Translations under genes and position numbers: made by a program
Notes under the pieces: generated by a model
Told to the model about the DNA's origin: nothing
Databases searched by the model: none
What the model saw: only the letters and a program-made list of their open reading frames with translations
Shown: positions 9,245 to 15,884 of the stretch, piece by piece
Numbering within the stretch: position 1 is the first letter of the stretch
Layout: every line of letters begins with the position of its first letter
From: Candidatus Saccharimonadota bacterium
Lineage (GTDB): Bacteria > Patescibacteriota > Saccharimonadia > Saccharimonadales > Saccharimonadaceae
Reading direction: 5' to 3'
DNA length: 56,982 nt
Assembly (NCBI GenBank): GCA_017652105.1
Contig: JAGCBP010000003.1
Span: forward strand, 1-56,982

Positions 9245-11662
9245 ATGGATAGTAACTTCAACAAAAAACAGCTTAGCGAGGAAGATATTAAGAATCGCTA
9301 CATCACGCCGGCATTAAATAGCGCCGGATGGAATAATGACGAGTTTCGCATGGAGCTCAAAGTTAAAACACAATTTACTGATGGAAAGATTAGTCTAAGT
9401 GGCAATCGTGCCCATCGTGAAAAACCAAAATTTGCCGATTACGTTCTCTATACAGAGACAAATTATCCAATAGCCGTAGTAGAAGCAAAAGACAACAACC
9501 ACACCGCAATTTATGGCCTACAGCAGGCTATGGATTACGCCGTGAAGCTAGACATCCCATTCGCCTACAGCTCGAATGGTGATTATTTTGTTGAACACGA
9601 TTTCTTAACCGGTCAAGAGCGCGATATTCCACTCGCAGCATTTCCTGGAAAACCAGAATTGTTAGCGCGTCTAGCACGAGCAAAAGGTGAAGCGCCAAGC
9701 GTTAAATACTTCACGCCAGAACAAGATATTATTAAGCAACCATACTACTCAGGCCAAAATACAAATACGCCACGCTACTATCAGCGTATTGCAATCAACC
9801 GTACGATCAATGCCGTAGCAAATGGCCAAAACCGTATCCTACTTGTGATGGCAACTGGTACCGGCAAAACTTACACTGCATTTCAAATCATTTACCGCTT
9901 ACTGAAGAGCGGCATGAAGCGCAAGATTCTCTATCTTGCAGATCGCAACATCCTTGTCGACCAATCTATCGAACAAGACTTCAAGCCACTTGAAAAATCT
10001 ATACATAAGATCAACTTCCGCAAAGATACGCGCGAAACAATTGGCGCCTACGACGTATACTTCTCGCTATACCAACAACTTGCAGATCGTGACAACGATG
10101 GCCTAGGCGACGAAGAAGATTACGACGAAGATGGAGATGGTGTAATCGAAAATGGCGATGTTTCAAGCCGCCTCGAGCAGTTATTCTCTCGTGACTTCTT
10201 CGACCTTGTTATTGTGGATGAGTGTCATCGCGGTAGCGCAAAAGAAGCAAGCAACTGGCATAAGATCCTGGAGTACTTTAACGGCGCAACTCAAATTGGT
10301 ATGACTGCCACGCCAAAAGAAACAAACGACGTTTCGAATATCAGCTACTTTGGCGAACCGGTCTATACATATAGCCTCAAAGAAGGCATTGAGGACGGTT
10401 TCTTGGCACCTTTCCACGTTATTGAAGAAACTACCAACATCACTGACGGTTGGCGCCCTGTGGCCGGCCAATTAGACGAAAACGGCAACGAAATCCCAGA
10501 TCGTATCTATACTAATTCCGATTTCGATACAAATATCGTACTCCGTGATCGTACTCGTGAAGTGGCCGCAAAGATTACTGATTATCTCAAATCTACCGAC
10601 CGTATGCAAAAGACGATCGTATTCTGCCCTACCGAGGACGCCGCTGATAGAATGCGAAAAGAGCTTGTCAATTTTAATACTGACATGATGCAAGAAAACT
10701 CAGATTATATTGTGCGCATTACTGGTGGCGACAAATTTGGCAAGGACAAACTCGATTATTTCATTTCCGTAAGCGAAAAATATCCAGTAATCGCTACCAC
10801 ATCAAAGCTATTATCTACTGGCGTAGACTGCAAAATGGTGAAGTTGATCGTATTAGACGAAGTAATCGGTTCCATGACGGAATTTAAACAGATTATTGGC
10901 CGCGGCACACGTTTGCGTGTTAACGAAGGCAAAACTCATTTTGCAGTTATGGACTTCCGCGGAAATACTAAACAATTCGCTGATCCAAAATGGGATGGCC
11001 CGGTCGAAGTTAGCCCTGGCTATGCGCCTGGTAATGGTGGCACCACAAAACCTGCATCAACTGGTGGCGTAATTACGTTTGTTGACGACGAAACGCCAAT
11101 CGTAGATTCTGATGGCTGCAAGGTCCAAGTCGTAAACGAAGAAGTAAAAATCTATGACTTTGAAAGCGGTAAGCTAATTCGCACCGAAAGTCTTTCTGAC
11201 TATATTAAGCGTACATTTACCGAAATGTTCCCAACCATAGAAGATTTCAATGATATTTGGCTAGGCCATGCGTCAAGAAATGTGGCCGAGCATGATATTG
11301 CCGCAAAAGGCATCGATCTAGAAGCGTTCAAGAACGAGACGAATTCTGAGGATGTGGACGATTATGATCTTATTCGCGAGTTAGTATACAATTTACCGGC
11401 TAAATCGCGCCACGAGCGCGCTAAGGCGGTCAGAGAGGGTAATTTCCTTGATAGATACCCAGACGAATTCCAGAAAACTATCATTAACCTACTTCTAGAC
11501 AAATACGTAGAGTTCGGTCTAGACGAAATCGAAAAGACATCCGTGCTAAAGCTTGAAGAATTCGAACAGTATGGAAGCCCGGTTAGAATCGCAGAACGAT
11601 TTGGCGGAACAGAAGCCTACGACAGAATGACAAAAGACTTAATCAAAGAATTATATAAGTAA
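9245..11662 (+). CDS. hsdR: Type I restriction enzyme, HsdR subunit
   Basis: Motor and nuclease subunit of a type I restriction-modification complex, 805 residues, in the length range of EcoEI/EcoAI-like HsdR. The N-terminal nuclease core has D65, E80 and K82 (VVEAKD). The SF2 translocase has Walker A ATGTGKT at 203-209 and the DECH box at 325-328. Motif VI (QIIGRGTRLR) and a C-terminal EcoEI-type domain follow. Residues 281-305, between YFSLYQQLA and the DECH box, hold two acidic loops (DRDNDGLGDEED and DEDGDGVIENGD) that match calcium-binding EF-hand/thrombospondin-3 loops. That is unusual for this family. First gene of the operon; hsdM starts 18 bases after the stop. Confidence 0.95.
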   Translation: MDSNFNKKQLSEEDIKNRYITPALNSAGWNNDEFRMELKVKTQFTDGKISLSGNRAHREKPKFADYVLYTETNYPIAVVEAKDNNHTAIYGLQQAMDYAVKLDIPFAYSSNGDYFVEHDFLTGQERDIPLAAFPGKPELLARLARAKGEAPSVKYFTPEQDIIKQPYYSGQNTNTPRYYQRIAINRTINAVANGQNRILLVMATGTGKTYTAFQIIYRLLKSGMKRKILYLADRNILVDQSIEQDFKPLEKSIHKINFRKDTRETIGAYDVYFSLYQQLADRDNDGLGDEEDYDEDGDGVIENGDVSSRLEQLFSRDFFDLVIVDECHRGSAKEASNWHKILEYFNGATQIGMTATPKETNDVSNISYFGEPVYTYSLKEGIEDGFLAPFHVIEETTNITDGWRPVAGQLDENGNEIPDRIYTNSDFDTNIVLRDRTREVAAKITDYLKSTDRMQKTIVFCPTEDAADRMRKELVNFNTDMMQENSDYIVRITGGDKFGKDKLDYFISVSEKYPVIATTSKLLSTGVDCKMVKLIVLDEVIGSMTEFKQIIGRGTRLRVNEGKTHFAVMDFRGNTKQFADPKWDGPVEVSPGYAPGNGGTTKPASTGGVITFVDDETPIVDSDGCKVQVVNEEVKIYDFESGKLIRTESLSDYIKRTFTEMFPTIEDFNDIWLGHASRNVAEHDIAAKGIDLEAFKNETNSEDVDDYDLIRELVYNLPAKSRHERAKAVREGNFLDRYPDEFQKTIINLLLDKYVEFGLDEIEKTSVLKLEEFEQYGSPVRIAERFGGTEAYDRMTKDLIKELYK
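10085..10159 (+). other. Tandem calcium-loop-like insertion in HsdR
   Basis: Encodes HsdR residues 281-305. The second loop fits the EF-hand 12-residue pattern exactly: Asp at positions 1, 3, 5 and 12, Gly at 6, Ile at 8. The first loop has Asp at 1, 3, 5, 9 and 12 and Gly at 6. Confidence 0.8.
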
Positions 11663-11680: not shown

Positions 11681-13171
11681 ATGGCAAGCATATCAACATT
11701 TGTAAAATCACTACGCGACATTATGCGTAACGACTCAGGTGTTAATGGTGACGCGCAGCGTATTGAACAAATTACGTGGATGCTCTTTCTAAAGGTTTAC
11801 TCCGAAAAAGAGAAAGAATGGAAATTCGAAGATCCTAACTGGACTTCAATTATTCCAGAAGAATGCCAGTGGGATAACTGGGCACATGATGATTTCACCG
11901 GCAAAGCCATTACTGGCGATAAGTTACTAGATTTCGTAAATAATACTTTATTCCCAACACTCAGGAAACTAGAAATAAACGACAGCACACCAATCAAAAA
12001 ATCCATCGTCAAAACAACATTTGAAGACGCCAACAACTACATGAAAGACGGCGCTCTTCTTCGCCAGGTTCTTAACGTCATCGACGGAATTGACCTAGGT
12101 GATTATCAGCAATCACATGCATTTGGCGAAATCTATGAATCGATCCTCCGCGAACTTCAAAGCGCAGGCTCTTCCGGCGAATTCTACACGCCGCGCGCCG
12201 TAACAGAATTCATGGCTGAAATGATAGATCCGCAAATTGGAGAGAAAATGGCAGACTTTGCCTGTGGTACTGGTGGTTTCTTGACGAGCTGGATCCACCA
12301 ACTGGAAAAGAAGGTCAAAAGCACTGCAGACCGCGAAGCGCTTGGCAATTCCATCTACGGCATCGAGAAGAAACAATTCCCATACATGCTCTGTATCACT
12401 AACATGCTTCTTCATGGTGTAGATGTGCCGAAGATTTACCACGACAACTCACTTACTAAAAACGTGCTCGATTATACCGAAAAAGAGAAGTTTGATGTGA
12501 TTCTCATGAATCCACCATACGGCGGCAACGAAAAAGCAGATATTAAGAAACACTTCCCAGCCGATATCGCATCTAGTGAAACCGCCGACCTATTCATGGC
12601 CGTAATTATGTATCGCCTGAAAAGGAATGGCCGCGCAGCAGTAGTCCTTCCTGATGGTTTCCTATTCGGCACCGATAACGCAAAACTGGCGCTTAAGAAA
12701 AAACTTATAAGCGAGTTCAATCTCCATACAATCATTCGTCTACCAGGAAGCGTCTTTGCGCCATATACATCAATCGCTACCAACTTACTCTTCTTCGATA
12801 ATTCTGGTCCAACCAAAGAAACCTGGTTCTACCGCATGGAAATGCCAACTGGCCGCAAAGCATTCAATAAAACTAATCCGATCGCCTTGAAGGATTTAGC
12901 GCCAGTCAAAGAATGGTGGAGTGACCGTAAAGTAATTGAAGACGAGAAAAAGAGCGAAGACTCCGCAATAACTTATAAGTCTAAGAACTATACCGCAGAA
13001 GAAATTGCCGATCATGGATATAACTTGGACTTGTGCGGATTCCCACAAGAAGAAAAAGTAATCCTAAGTCCAGAAGAAACAATCACGAATTTTATCGCGA
13101 AACGTGAAGCGTTAGAAAAAGAAATCGACGAAAAACTAGAAGAATTAAAAACTCTTTTGGAGATTAAGTAA
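11681..13171 (+). CDS. hsdM: Type I DNA methyltransferase, HsdM subunit
   Basis: Adenine-N6 methyltransferase subunit of the type I complex, 496 residues. A helical HsdM_N domain (about 1-130) is followed by the S-adenosylmethionine site DFACGTGGF at 192-200 and the catalytic NPPY at 277-280. The flanking FYTPRAVTEFM segment is typical of HsdM. With HsdS it methylates the target site and protects the genome. The start has a good ribosome site (AAAGGATAACC). Its stop overlaps the hsdS start by one base (TAATG), indicating coupled translation. Confidence 0.96.
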   Translation: MASISTFVKSLRDIMRNDSGVNGDAQRIEQITWMLFLKVYSEKEKEWKFEDPNWTSIIPEECQWDNWAHDDFTGKAITGDKLLDFVNNTLFPTLRKLEINDSTPIKKSIVKTTFEDANNYMKDGALLRQVLNVIDGIDLGDYQQSHAFGEIYESILRELQSAGSSGEFYTPRAVTEFMAEMIDPQIGEKMADFACGTGGFLTSWIHQLEKKVKSTADREALGNSIYGIEKKQFPYMLCITNMLLHGVDVPKIYHDNSLTKNVLDYTEKEKFDVILMNPPYGGNEKADIKKHFPADIASSETADLFMAVIMYRLKRNGRAAVVLPDGFLFGTDNAKLALKKKLISEFNLHTIIRLPGSVFAPYTSIATNLLFFDNSGPTKETWFYRMEMPTGRKAFNKTNPIALKDLAPVKEWWSDRKVIEDEKKSEDSAITYKSKNYTAEEIADHGYNLDLCGFPQEEKVILSPEETITNFIAKREALEKEIDEKLEELKTLLEIK

Positions 13172-14613
13172 TGTCTACTATTTGTGATGATTTACGAACT
13201 TCTATCATCGATGCTGCGTTTCAGGGGAAGTTGACAAAGCAGTCACCAGAAGATGGCGATGCCAACACTCTACTAAAACAATTAGAGATGGAAAAAGAAC
13301 AACTAATAAAAGATAGGGTAATAAAGAAGCAAAAAGAACTTCCTCCAATAAGTGATAATGAGATACCATATGCTATACCTGACGACTGGAAATGGATAAG
13401 ATTCAATGATTTCTTTGAAGTATCAGGCGGATCTCAACCCCCAAAATCCAAGTTCATTTTTGAACCCAAAGATGGTTATGTTAGACTATATCAAACGAGA
13501 GACTATGGCAAAAATCCTCAACCGGTCTACATACCAATAAAAACGGCATCGAAAACAACGAAAAAAGGCGACATACTTTTGGCTAGATATGGCGGATCAT
13601 TGGGTAAAGTATTTTTTGCAGAAGATGGTGCGTACAATGTCGCAATGGCAAAGGTCATTCGATTATTTCAAGAATCTAGCATAGATACAAAGTACCTATA
13701 CTATTTCTTTCACACTAATTTGTATAGATCTGTAATATTCCAAAATAATCGTAGCGCACAGGCCGGCTTCAACAAAGACGATCTTAACATTCTCCTTTTT
13801 CCATTACCGCCACTTGCTGAACAAAAACGCATCGTAGAAAAAGTCGACGAGCTCATGGCTCGCGTCGCTGATTTAGAACAATCGGCTGACACTCTCGCGT
13901 TGCTAAAAAAAGCTTTTCCTGATGATATTAAGGCCTCTTTGTTGCAATATGCCATGCAGGGTAAGCTTACTAAACAATTGCCAGAAGATGGCAACGCAGA
14001 AGACTTATTAACACACAGACACGACGATTGTAGTAAAAAACATAAATCGACAGCAATTTCTGAGAATGAAAAACCGTTTTCTATTCCTTCTACCTGGCAA
14101 TGGATTAGAATTGGTGATTTTTTCGAAACTATTACTGGCGGCACGCCAAGTAAAACACATAGCGAATATTATGGCGGAGATTACGCGTTTTTCAAACCGT
14201 CAGACCTAGACGCAGGAAAGTATATCACTGATACATCAGAATACCTAACAGAAGCCGGACGTATGGTCAGTCGTCAGCTCCCAGCAAATACGATTCTTAT
14301 CTGTTGCATTGGCTCTATAGGAAAAGTCGCCATTATGGGCATCGAAGGGACGACCAATCAACAAATTAATGCGATTCTCCCAAATGACAGCGTAGATATA
14401 GAATACTTATATTATGCAATAAAAAGCCCTGTATTCTTTGAGAAGATCTGGTCATTGGCCTCATCTACGACGATATCAATAGTAAACAAGTCAAAAATGG
14501 ATTCGATCATAATTCCACTACCACCGCTCGCCGAGCAAAAACGCATCGTAGAACGTCTAAATAGCCTAATGCAAAATATTAACGCGGTGGGAGAATTAAT
14601 CGCGAGTGAATAA
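13171..14613 (+). CDS. hsdS: Type I specificity subunit, HsdS
   Basis: DNA-recognition subunit of 480 residues made of two similar halves. Each half begins with an FQGKLTKQ/MQGKLTKQ helix start and a PYAIPDDWKWIR or PFSIPSTWQWIR entry into a target-recognition domain, and ends with LPPLAEQKRIVE and a coiled coil. The two domains should read the two halves of a bipartite site. The charged linker helix of the first half (EMEKEQLIKDRVIKKQ) is replaced by a shorter segment in the second. An 18-base exact repeat (13822-13839 and 14536-14553) encodes the start of each coil and could support domain exchange. Its stop overlaps the next gene by one base. Confidence 0.94.
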   Translation: MSTICDDLRTSIIDAAFQGKLTKQSPEDGDANTLLKQLEMEKEQLIKDRVIKKQKELPPISDNEIPYAIPDDWKWIRFNDFFEVSGGSQPPKSKFIFEPKDGYVRLYQTRDYGKNPQPVYIPIKTASKTTKKGDILLARYGGSLGKVFFAEDGAYNVAMAKVIRLFQESSIDTKYLYYFFHTNLYRSVIFQNNRSAQAGFNKDDLNILLFPLPPLAEQKRIVEKVDELMARVADLEQSADTLALLKKAFPDDIKASLLQYAMQGKLTKQLPEDGNAEDLLTHRHDDCSKKHKSTAISENEKPFSIPSTWQWIRIGDFFETITGGTPSKTHSEYYGGDYAFFKPSDLDAGKYITDTSEYLTEAGRMVSRQLPANTILICCIGSIGKVAIMGIEGTTNQQINAILPNDSVDIEYLYYAIKSPVFFEKIWSLASSTTISIVNKSKMDSIIIPLPPLAEQKRIVERLNSLMQNINAVGELIASE

Positions 14614-15884
14614 TGACCGCAAAATTTCAAATTAAGCTACCACTAGACATTATAGAAGATTTTAGAAAAGAAATAAACCAAGATGATTTTTTGCTTCTTG
14701 AAAATGAATCCCCTATATTTCATGATGGCGCAACTTATAAAAAGCATTACAATACTATATGCGCTTGTATGGATAGAATCCAAGACACTGCCAAATATCT
14801 CAACGAGAAACCACTCGGAGAACAGCATGATTATGGTTGTGCATTTGATTTTATTGAATTTATATCACATTCAGCAACAATGCTCGATTGTATAAATTCA
14901 CTGGCAGACATTTTTAGCTGCAAAGAAAAATTCAATTTAGATACGGAATTCTTTAAAAGTAAAAATGTTTTCCGCCCAGAAGAATTAAAATATAAACTAA
15001 AATCTGGGAAAAATAATGATGATCGATATTTTGAATACATAAGAACCATTAGCTCAATTCACCCGAATGACACAAAACGGCATAAAGCTTTTCAGCACAC
15101 CGACAAAGAAGTAAGCCCCTTTGTCATTTGGAATAAATTCGCTGGACTAGATAAAGAAAATAGTGGCGATATCTTGCTACGTATATACGACAAAGGCGAA
15201 AAAGTAGAAATATATAATCTAAATTTATATCTTAGTGAAATTATAAATTATATAAAAGATAGATACAGTCATTTGATAATAATTCAAGATACTATAAGAA
15301 GAATCAAAGAAGAAAGAATTAATTCGTTAAAAATTTCACCTATCAAAAATCCAAAAGAATTTAAAAACTATAGCATCTATCTTAATAACTTATCAAAAGA
15401 AGCAGCTAAGAGAGATGGTTATGCCTCTGAAGATATTAAGCAACTTGCAAAAATGGTCAATATTGAAACAATACCCGCTAAAAACAACCAAAAGTTTAAA
15501 AAATACAAGAATGCCATAAAATTTGCTATCAAAAAATTACACTCCGCTCTAGAAGAAATGGATAGCGAGAAAATACGCAAATCCGTTCAATTATTAAGGA
15601 GCTTAGATCTTCCAAATCTTGAAGAGGAAGATGCAGGTCTTTCTTGTAGCTACAACTATGAAAAAATACGCAAATTATATTATGAAGATGATACTTGGTC
15701 CAGACAACTTGCTAGTCATATGTCCGATATTTTTAATAAGTACGTTTCGGTAAACGATGAAGAATTCTTTTCACTAGCCCCACTACAGTTATTAGCAACC
15801 ATAAATACTGCATTATATTTTTATTCATTAAAACATGATACTGTCACAAACAGACAGATTCCAAAAACAAAACAATATCGATAA
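14613..15884 (+). CDS. Uncharacterised fourth gene of the type I RM operon
   Basis: Protein of 423 residues, translationally coupled to hsdS (TAATG, one-base overlap). I do not recognise a named family. It is predicted mostly alpha-helical, with no membrane segment or signal peptide. Residues 144-162 carry two consecutive R-x5-H motifs (RTISSIH and RHKAFQH), the spacing seen in HEPN ribonucleases, followed by an SPFVIW segment. HEPN membership is only a possibility, since the fold was not tested. The gene is clearly more AT-rich than hsdR and hsdM, which points to separate acquisition. The context suggests an accessory defence role, such as an effector or guard acting with the restriction complex. 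Alternatives are a host-takeover sensor or an unrelated cargo gene. Confidence 0.7.
   Translation: MTAKFQIKLPLDIIEDFRKEINQDDFLLLENESPIFHDGATYKKHYNTICACMDRIQDTAKYLNEKPLGEQHDYGCAFDFIEFISHSATMLDCINSLADIFSCKEKFNLDTEFFKSKNVFRPEELKYKLKSGKNNDDRYFEYIRTISSIHPNDTKRHKAFQHTDKEVSPFVIWNKFAGLDKENSGDILLRIYDKGEKVEIYNLNLYLSEIINYIKDRYSHLIIIQDTIRRIKEERINSLKISPIKNPKEFKNYSIYLNNLSKEAAKRDGYASEDIKQLAKMVNIETIPAKNNQKFKKYKNAIKFAIKKLHSALEEMDSEKIRKSVQLLRSLDLPNLEEEDAGLSCSYNYEKIRKLYYEDDTWSRQLASHMSDIFNKYVSVNDEEFFSLAPLQLLATINTALYFYSLKHDTVTNRQIPKTKQYR

Follow-up and report, generated by a model that had tools for sequence, protein, structure and literature searches.

A lineage-limited acidic insertion with an EF-hand-type loop in the HsdR subunit of a Saccharibacterial Type I restriction system

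A loop with the ligand spacing of an EF-hand, placed inside a cytoplasmic DNA motor, raises the question of whether it is a metal site and, if so, what purpose the metal might serve. The case arises in the hsdR gene of a Candidatus Saccharimonadota bacterium, on a stretch of 56,982 nucleotides (assembly GCA_017652105.1, contig JAGCBP010000003.1) that is referred to here as the window. The original prediction described two consecutive EF-hand-like loops in this protein and proposed that they might couple restriction to calcium or manganese levels. The Saccharibacteria that carry the insert are tiny gut bacteria.

The restriction locus and its two acidic loops

The hsdR gene (9245-11662, forward strand; assigned from its ORF, NF046051 and Pfam) encodes an 805-residue restriction/translocase subunit of the EcoAI/FtnUII (Type IB) family. 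The protein scores 970.3 bits against NF046051 (cut-off 550), with positions 1-768 of the 768-position profile matched, which identifies a full-length Type IB HsdR. The Pfam domains ResIII, Helicase_C, HSDR_N and EcoEI_R_C are present, as are the nuclease E-x-K, Walker A, DECH, motif III TATP and motif VI GRGTR. Residues E80, K82, GTGKT 205-209, D325 and E326, T354-P357 and G552-R556 are invariant or near-invariant in alignments A1 and A2. The hsdM (11681-13171, forward strand; N6_Mtase and HsdM_N) and hsdS (13171-14613, forward strand; two target-recognition domains, with Methylase_S in two stretches) ORFs adjoin hsdR directly downstream. Directly after hsdS lies an ORF of 423 residues (14613-15884) that may belong to the locus as an accessory gene; it gave no match in an NCBIfam search and only a sub-threshold coiled-coil match in Pfam. 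The nearest solved relative of this HsdR, by sequence and by fold, is 3h1t, an HsdR fragment from Vibrio vulnificus YJ016 (phmmer E 3.4e-140; Foldseek E 4.1e-45). The whole protein, comprising nuclease, RecA1/RecA2 and EcoEI_R_C, is common to EcoAI/FtnUII HsdRs, but the linker between motifs Ib and II is ~22 residues longer in the window HsdR and contains Dx[DN]xDG loops.

HsdR residues 281-305 (10085-10159) read DRDNDGLGDEED, a single Tyr and then DEDGDGVIENGD. They are situated between YFSLYQQLA (residues 272-280; 10058-10084, forward strand), the motif Ib region that provides a strand and short helix ahead of the insert, and DECH (residues 325-328; 10217-10228, forward strand), which is motif II (Walker B) of the translocase and is invariant or near-invariant in alignment A2. 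Translation confirmed the two acidic 12-residue loops that had been described at 281-292 and 294-305, and the wider region 280-317 contains 15 acidic and three basic residues.

Loop 2 (residues 294-305; 10124-10159, forward strand), followed by V306, matches PS00018, the EF-hand pattern. The ligand spacing is D1, D3, D5, G6, I8, E9 and D12, with Asp at position 12, and the earlier claim of a full EF-hand pattern in this loop was correct. This is the sole PS00018 match in HsdR and in the window's six-frame ORFs of at least 100 residues, and the pattern was absent from the other 98 unique HsdR homologues in the scanned set. Loop 1 (residues 281-292; 10085-10120, forward strand) matches Dx[DN]xDGxx[DE]xx[DE] but fails PS00018, because its position 8 is non-hydrophobic (Gly/Asn/Asp). 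It is better named a thrombospondin type 3 (TSP3)-like Dx[DN]xDG loop than an EF-hand loop. A bare Dx[DN]xDG is uninformative alone, since 43 of 99 HsdRs have one somewhere, mostly as a conserved FADPDxDG after motif VI. This FADPDxDG, found in L056, L057, L065, L078, L098 and others, is a trap for calcium-motif scans of HsdRs; the window HsdR has FADPKWDG at that place.

When the insert's own residues were shuffled, PS00018 appeared in 0.8% of shuffles and PS00018 together with two Dx[DN]xDG in 0.02%, and shuffling of the whole HsdR gave PS00018 in 0.8%, all of these being post hoc figures. In profile searches, loop 2 scored 17.0 bits against EF-hand_1, under the Pfam cut-off of 25.4, and loops 1 and 2 together scored 15.2 bits against TSP_3, under the cut-off of 25; TSP3_bac reached 13.6 bits in the L024 ortholog. 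Across the 668-kb genome, the insert is the top match to both TSP_3 (E 0.031) and EF-hand_1 (E 0.33), with both matches below cut-off.

Distribution, conservation and origin of the insertion

Linkers were measured between motif Ib (YQ) and the FF that precedes DLVIVDECH, over 111 rows with duplicates included. The linker comprises 19-21 residues in 95 of these rows and 42-43 residues in the window HsdR and its orthologs. The insertion is real and lies where it had been placed, with ~22 residues beyond the linkers of relatives, mostly opposite a gap when aligned with 3h1t by phmmer, and likewise in alignment A1. The orthologs (L023, L024 and L025, which are the same loci as L072-L074) are 96-99% identical in protein sequence and all belong to Saccharibacteria. 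In a survey of the genus, this HsdR was found in 4 of 174 genomes, and all four copies carry the insert. Among more than 100 HsdRs, in which Firmicutes and Bacteroidota were represented via plasmid, phage and viral records only, the insert is limited to four species of one Saccharibacteria genus. It is absent from the other EcoAI-family HsdRs of Patescibacteria and from those of Saccharibacteria in the family or order of the genus, which have ordinary linkers. The insert is therefore not a CPR trait, and the suggestion that it might be restricted to CPR bacteria as a group gives way to a much narrower distribution.

Comparison of the four species gave dS values of 0.45-0.79 and dN/dS of ~0.02-0.04 for the rest of hsdR. 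Within the insert, 7-13 of ~14 synonymous sites differ per pair, which is near saturation, and dN is 0-0.07. In gap-aligned codons, ligand positions 1, 3, 5, 9 and 12 and the position-6 glycines are identical in 4/4 orthologs, and many of the codons at these positions have changed synonymously. This pattern shows that the insert is under constraint as a protein. Chance or sequencing error is ruled out, as the stretch occurs in four separate assemblies with differing codons. The conservation of the insert is no higher than that of the remainder of HsdR; with four changes and one indel it falls among the faster 12% of 25-residue windows, and just three of its positions vary, too few to reveal special protection of ligand positions. 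Conservation alone is no proof of a metal site, because residues 584-614, a linker predicted with low confidence, show equal or greater conservation. One extra residue between the two loops of L025 (DEETDYDEDGDG) displaces position 12 of loop 1, so that strict EF spacing is kept in loop 2 only. Of the double EF-hand loop that had been proposed, loop 2 qualifies, whereas loop 1 fails the pattern and has its spacing broken in this ortholog.

In a tree built without the linker, the four Saccharibacterial HsdRs group together (support 100), and their sister group consists of HsdRs found in phage records, on viral contigs and on a Bacteroidota plasmid. Within the sister clade, L078, L080 and L082 have acidic linkers of 30-31 residues without the motif and occupy a separate branch. 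These three viral-contig genes (L078 3001-5313, L080 3001-5346 and L082 3001-5343) have their own acidic expansion of 10-11 residues, with no Dx[DN]xDG. A distant Saccharibacterial HsdR, L164 (G703:C2:160924-163272), has a long acidic linker with SEETETEE, apparently the product of a third, independent expansion of the motif Ib-II linker. Insertions of 10-15 residues at the same linker site in other clades also lack the motif. The other acidic expansions indicate that insertion is tolerated at this site, with an acidic tendency, and that the EF-type loop arose once in the sample. A variable acidic linker with no conserved loop spacing, the alternative named in the original prediction, describes this picture in part: the acidity is there, and independent expansions in other HsdRs lack the motif, but the spacing of loop 2 is conserved in this lineage. 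Rigden et al. argue that Dx[DN]xDG loops arise convergently more readily where sequence is Asp-rich, and the history of the HsdR linker, as it can be read from these comparisons, matches that view (PMC3123361).

Other sources of the insert were also considered. Recombination from a secreted protein is unsupported, because the 25-residue insert has no plasmid match, no protein in the genome scores above cut-off for EF-hand_1 or TSP_3, and the genome-wide DxDxDG DNA pattern stands at chance level (12 matches vs 11 in the control). Tandem duplication is unconvincing, with a best DNA self-match of the insert of 55% at offset 33. In the viral contigs, the motif patterns were found only in a phage portal-like protein in L077 and in an irrelevant ORF in L159, and one further pattern returned nothing. 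The L077 match is an EF-hand-like loop, DEDGDGVIESEE, at 2194-2220 on the reverse strand. As for the locus itself, the DNA of hsdR and hsdM is 83-91% identical between the four species (window vs L023, L024 and L025). In the same comparisons, the hsdS match (window 13171-14613) is restricted to conserved segments and the upstream flanks have no match. This is as expected for a mobile system exchanging target-recognition domains.

Structural context and likeness to known metal loops

The structure prediction that had been recommended for the loops was run, with the outcome that helices flank an insert of low confidence. The full-length AlphaFold model of HsdR has a mean pLDDT of 77, and most insert residues have a pLDDT <50, both in this model and in a RecA1-only model. 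In the full model, a strand (271-275) and a helix (276-280) precede the insert, and a further helix follows loop 2 at VSSRLEQL (residues 306-313; 10160-10183, forward strand), which aligns with the end of the short linker of relatives. Loop 2 itself is preceded by loop 1, with no entering helix directly before it. The helix-loop-helix of the EF-hand, usually paired, is therefore not reproduced: helix 306-313 follows and loop 1 precedes loop 2, without a confident fold. AlphaFold cannot separate an apo metal loop from a disordered spacer in this instance, because there are only four insert-bearing sequences and no ion in the prediction. In EcoR124I, the motif Ib residues T382, Q384, K385 and N388 have been modelled as DNA-binding (PMC2878639), and the insert directly follows their equivalents.

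Loop 2 resembles the EF-hand (PF00036; PS00018; calbindin, calcineurin B) in its ligand spacing and following helix, and phmmer matches to EF-hand proteins are weak (E 0.04 and above). It differs in being single, in having Asp at position 12, in lacking a helix directly ahead and in its sub-cut-off score. Thrombospondin type 3 repeats (PF02412, bacterial PF18884) are typically extracellular. The HsdR insert shares with them tandem acidic loops of the Dx[DN]xDGxxDxxD type, but comprises one unit plus an EF loop, has no Cys and scores below cut-off. The DxDxDG loop of Lactobacillus PepX (PMC10536834) and the 25-residue calcium insertion of Tk-subtilisin (PMC3123361) are, like that of HsdR, lineage-limited loops in an ordinary enzyme fold. 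In both of these proteins calcium is bound in crystal structures, whereas the HsdR site is a prediction from sequence and its host is a DNA translocase.

Possible roles of the insert

The motif Ib-II linker is probably a length-variable acidic surface linker that was expanded by ~22 residues in this lineage, in an HsdR that would otherwise be a standard Type IB subunit. In the common ancestor of the four species, the expanded linker may have gained a TSP3-like Dx[DN]xDG loop and then an EF-hand-type loop, of which loop 2 most likely, and loop 1 perhaps, binds a divalent cation. Rigden et al. reported that grafting a DxDxDG loop into rat CD2 is enough to create a Ca2+ site (PMC3123361), and Asp at position 12 of an EF-hand is reported to weaken the binding of Ca2+ and shift the preference to Mg2+ (PMC2873350). 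Given the Asp at position 12, the cytoplasmic ion is more probably Mg2+, or else weakly bound Ca2+. A bound ion would fold and shield a floppy, highly charged loop beside the DNA-contacting motif Ib, and the insert would be a passive structural element rather than a calcium switch. The lineage-specific linker expansion with its Dx[DN]xDG loops can thus be regarded, with moderate confidence, as a passive surface loop stabilised by a divalent ion. What the sequences show directly is the insertion with its motif and distribution, along with the fixed ligand residues; the binding of a metal, the ion involved and the structural role are inferences. Against a metal loop stand an insert without confident AlphaFold structure, EF-hand_1 and TSP_3 scores below cut-off and a conservation that is not exceptional.

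The passive metal loop is favoured, with an unstructured acidic spacer ranked close behind. Such a disordered spacer would have no specific metal site, and its EF-hand pattern would be a by-product of GAY/GAR/GGN codon expansion at a site tolerant of Asp and Glu. This explanation is possible, if tentative, and is consistent with the motif-less 30-31-residue linkers of L078, L080 and L082 on their separate branch, with the further long linker of L164, with the pLDDT of <50, with the L025 indel that breaks the register of loop 1 and with the position of the insert among the faster-evolving windows. It is less easily reconciled with a same-residue shuffle frequency of just 0.02% for the EF-hand pattern combined with two Dx[DN]xDG, with ligand residues that are fixed despite near-saturated synonymous sites, or with the absence of the motif from other expanded linkers. 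The charge of residues 280-317 (15 acidic vs three basic), directly after the DNA contacts modelled in EcoR124I (PMC2878639), and the recurrence of acidic expansion at the motif Ib-II linker site could instead suggest an electrostatic guard. A negative loop by motif Ib would then repel or mimic DNA and tune the motor's grip or release of the duplex, with metal secondary or absent. This is considered unlikely, as close relatives manage with ordinary short linkers, some of them nearly neutral, and the exact EF-hand spacing is left unexplained.

A calcium (or manganese) switch, tying restriction to ion level, is less probable again. With free Ca2+ usually very low in the bacterial cytoplasm and an Asp as residue 12 of loop 2, calcium is unlikely to act as a switch. 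The preference of such an Asp for Mg2+ (PMC2873350), the single and unpaired EF-type loop with no entering helix directly before it, and the low confidence of the insert in both AlphaFold models do not sustain the calcium coupling originally put forward. In addition, matches to EF-hand_1 and TSP_3 stay below cut-off throughout the genome, and this HsdR occurs in only 4 of the 174 genomes of the genus. Some DxDxDG loops may nevertheless affect bacterial enzyme activity, the precedent being a PepX double mutant that is inactive (PMC10536834), and the consensus loop 2 of HsdR does adjoin motifs Ib and II. Taken further, the same placement could describe a Type I motor in which a divalent ion in the EF-hand-type loop beside motif Ib allosterically controls the ATPase or the grip on DNA, that is, an ion-gated restriction enzyme in Saccharibacteria, although this is the most improbable of the readings. 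The earlier description as two EF-hand loops with calcium coupling goes too far, and the observation that underlies it is right.

The HsdR insert is a lineage-limited EF-hand-type loop inside a cytoplasmic DNA motor, for which the plain acidic linkers of its relatives provide a side-by-side comparison. If no metal is bound, the insert serves as a caution that even a perfect EF-hand match within an acidic linker can be non-functional. If the passive metal loop favoured here does bind an ion, it would illustrate the de novo rise of Dx[DN]xDG sites in Asp-rich linkers.
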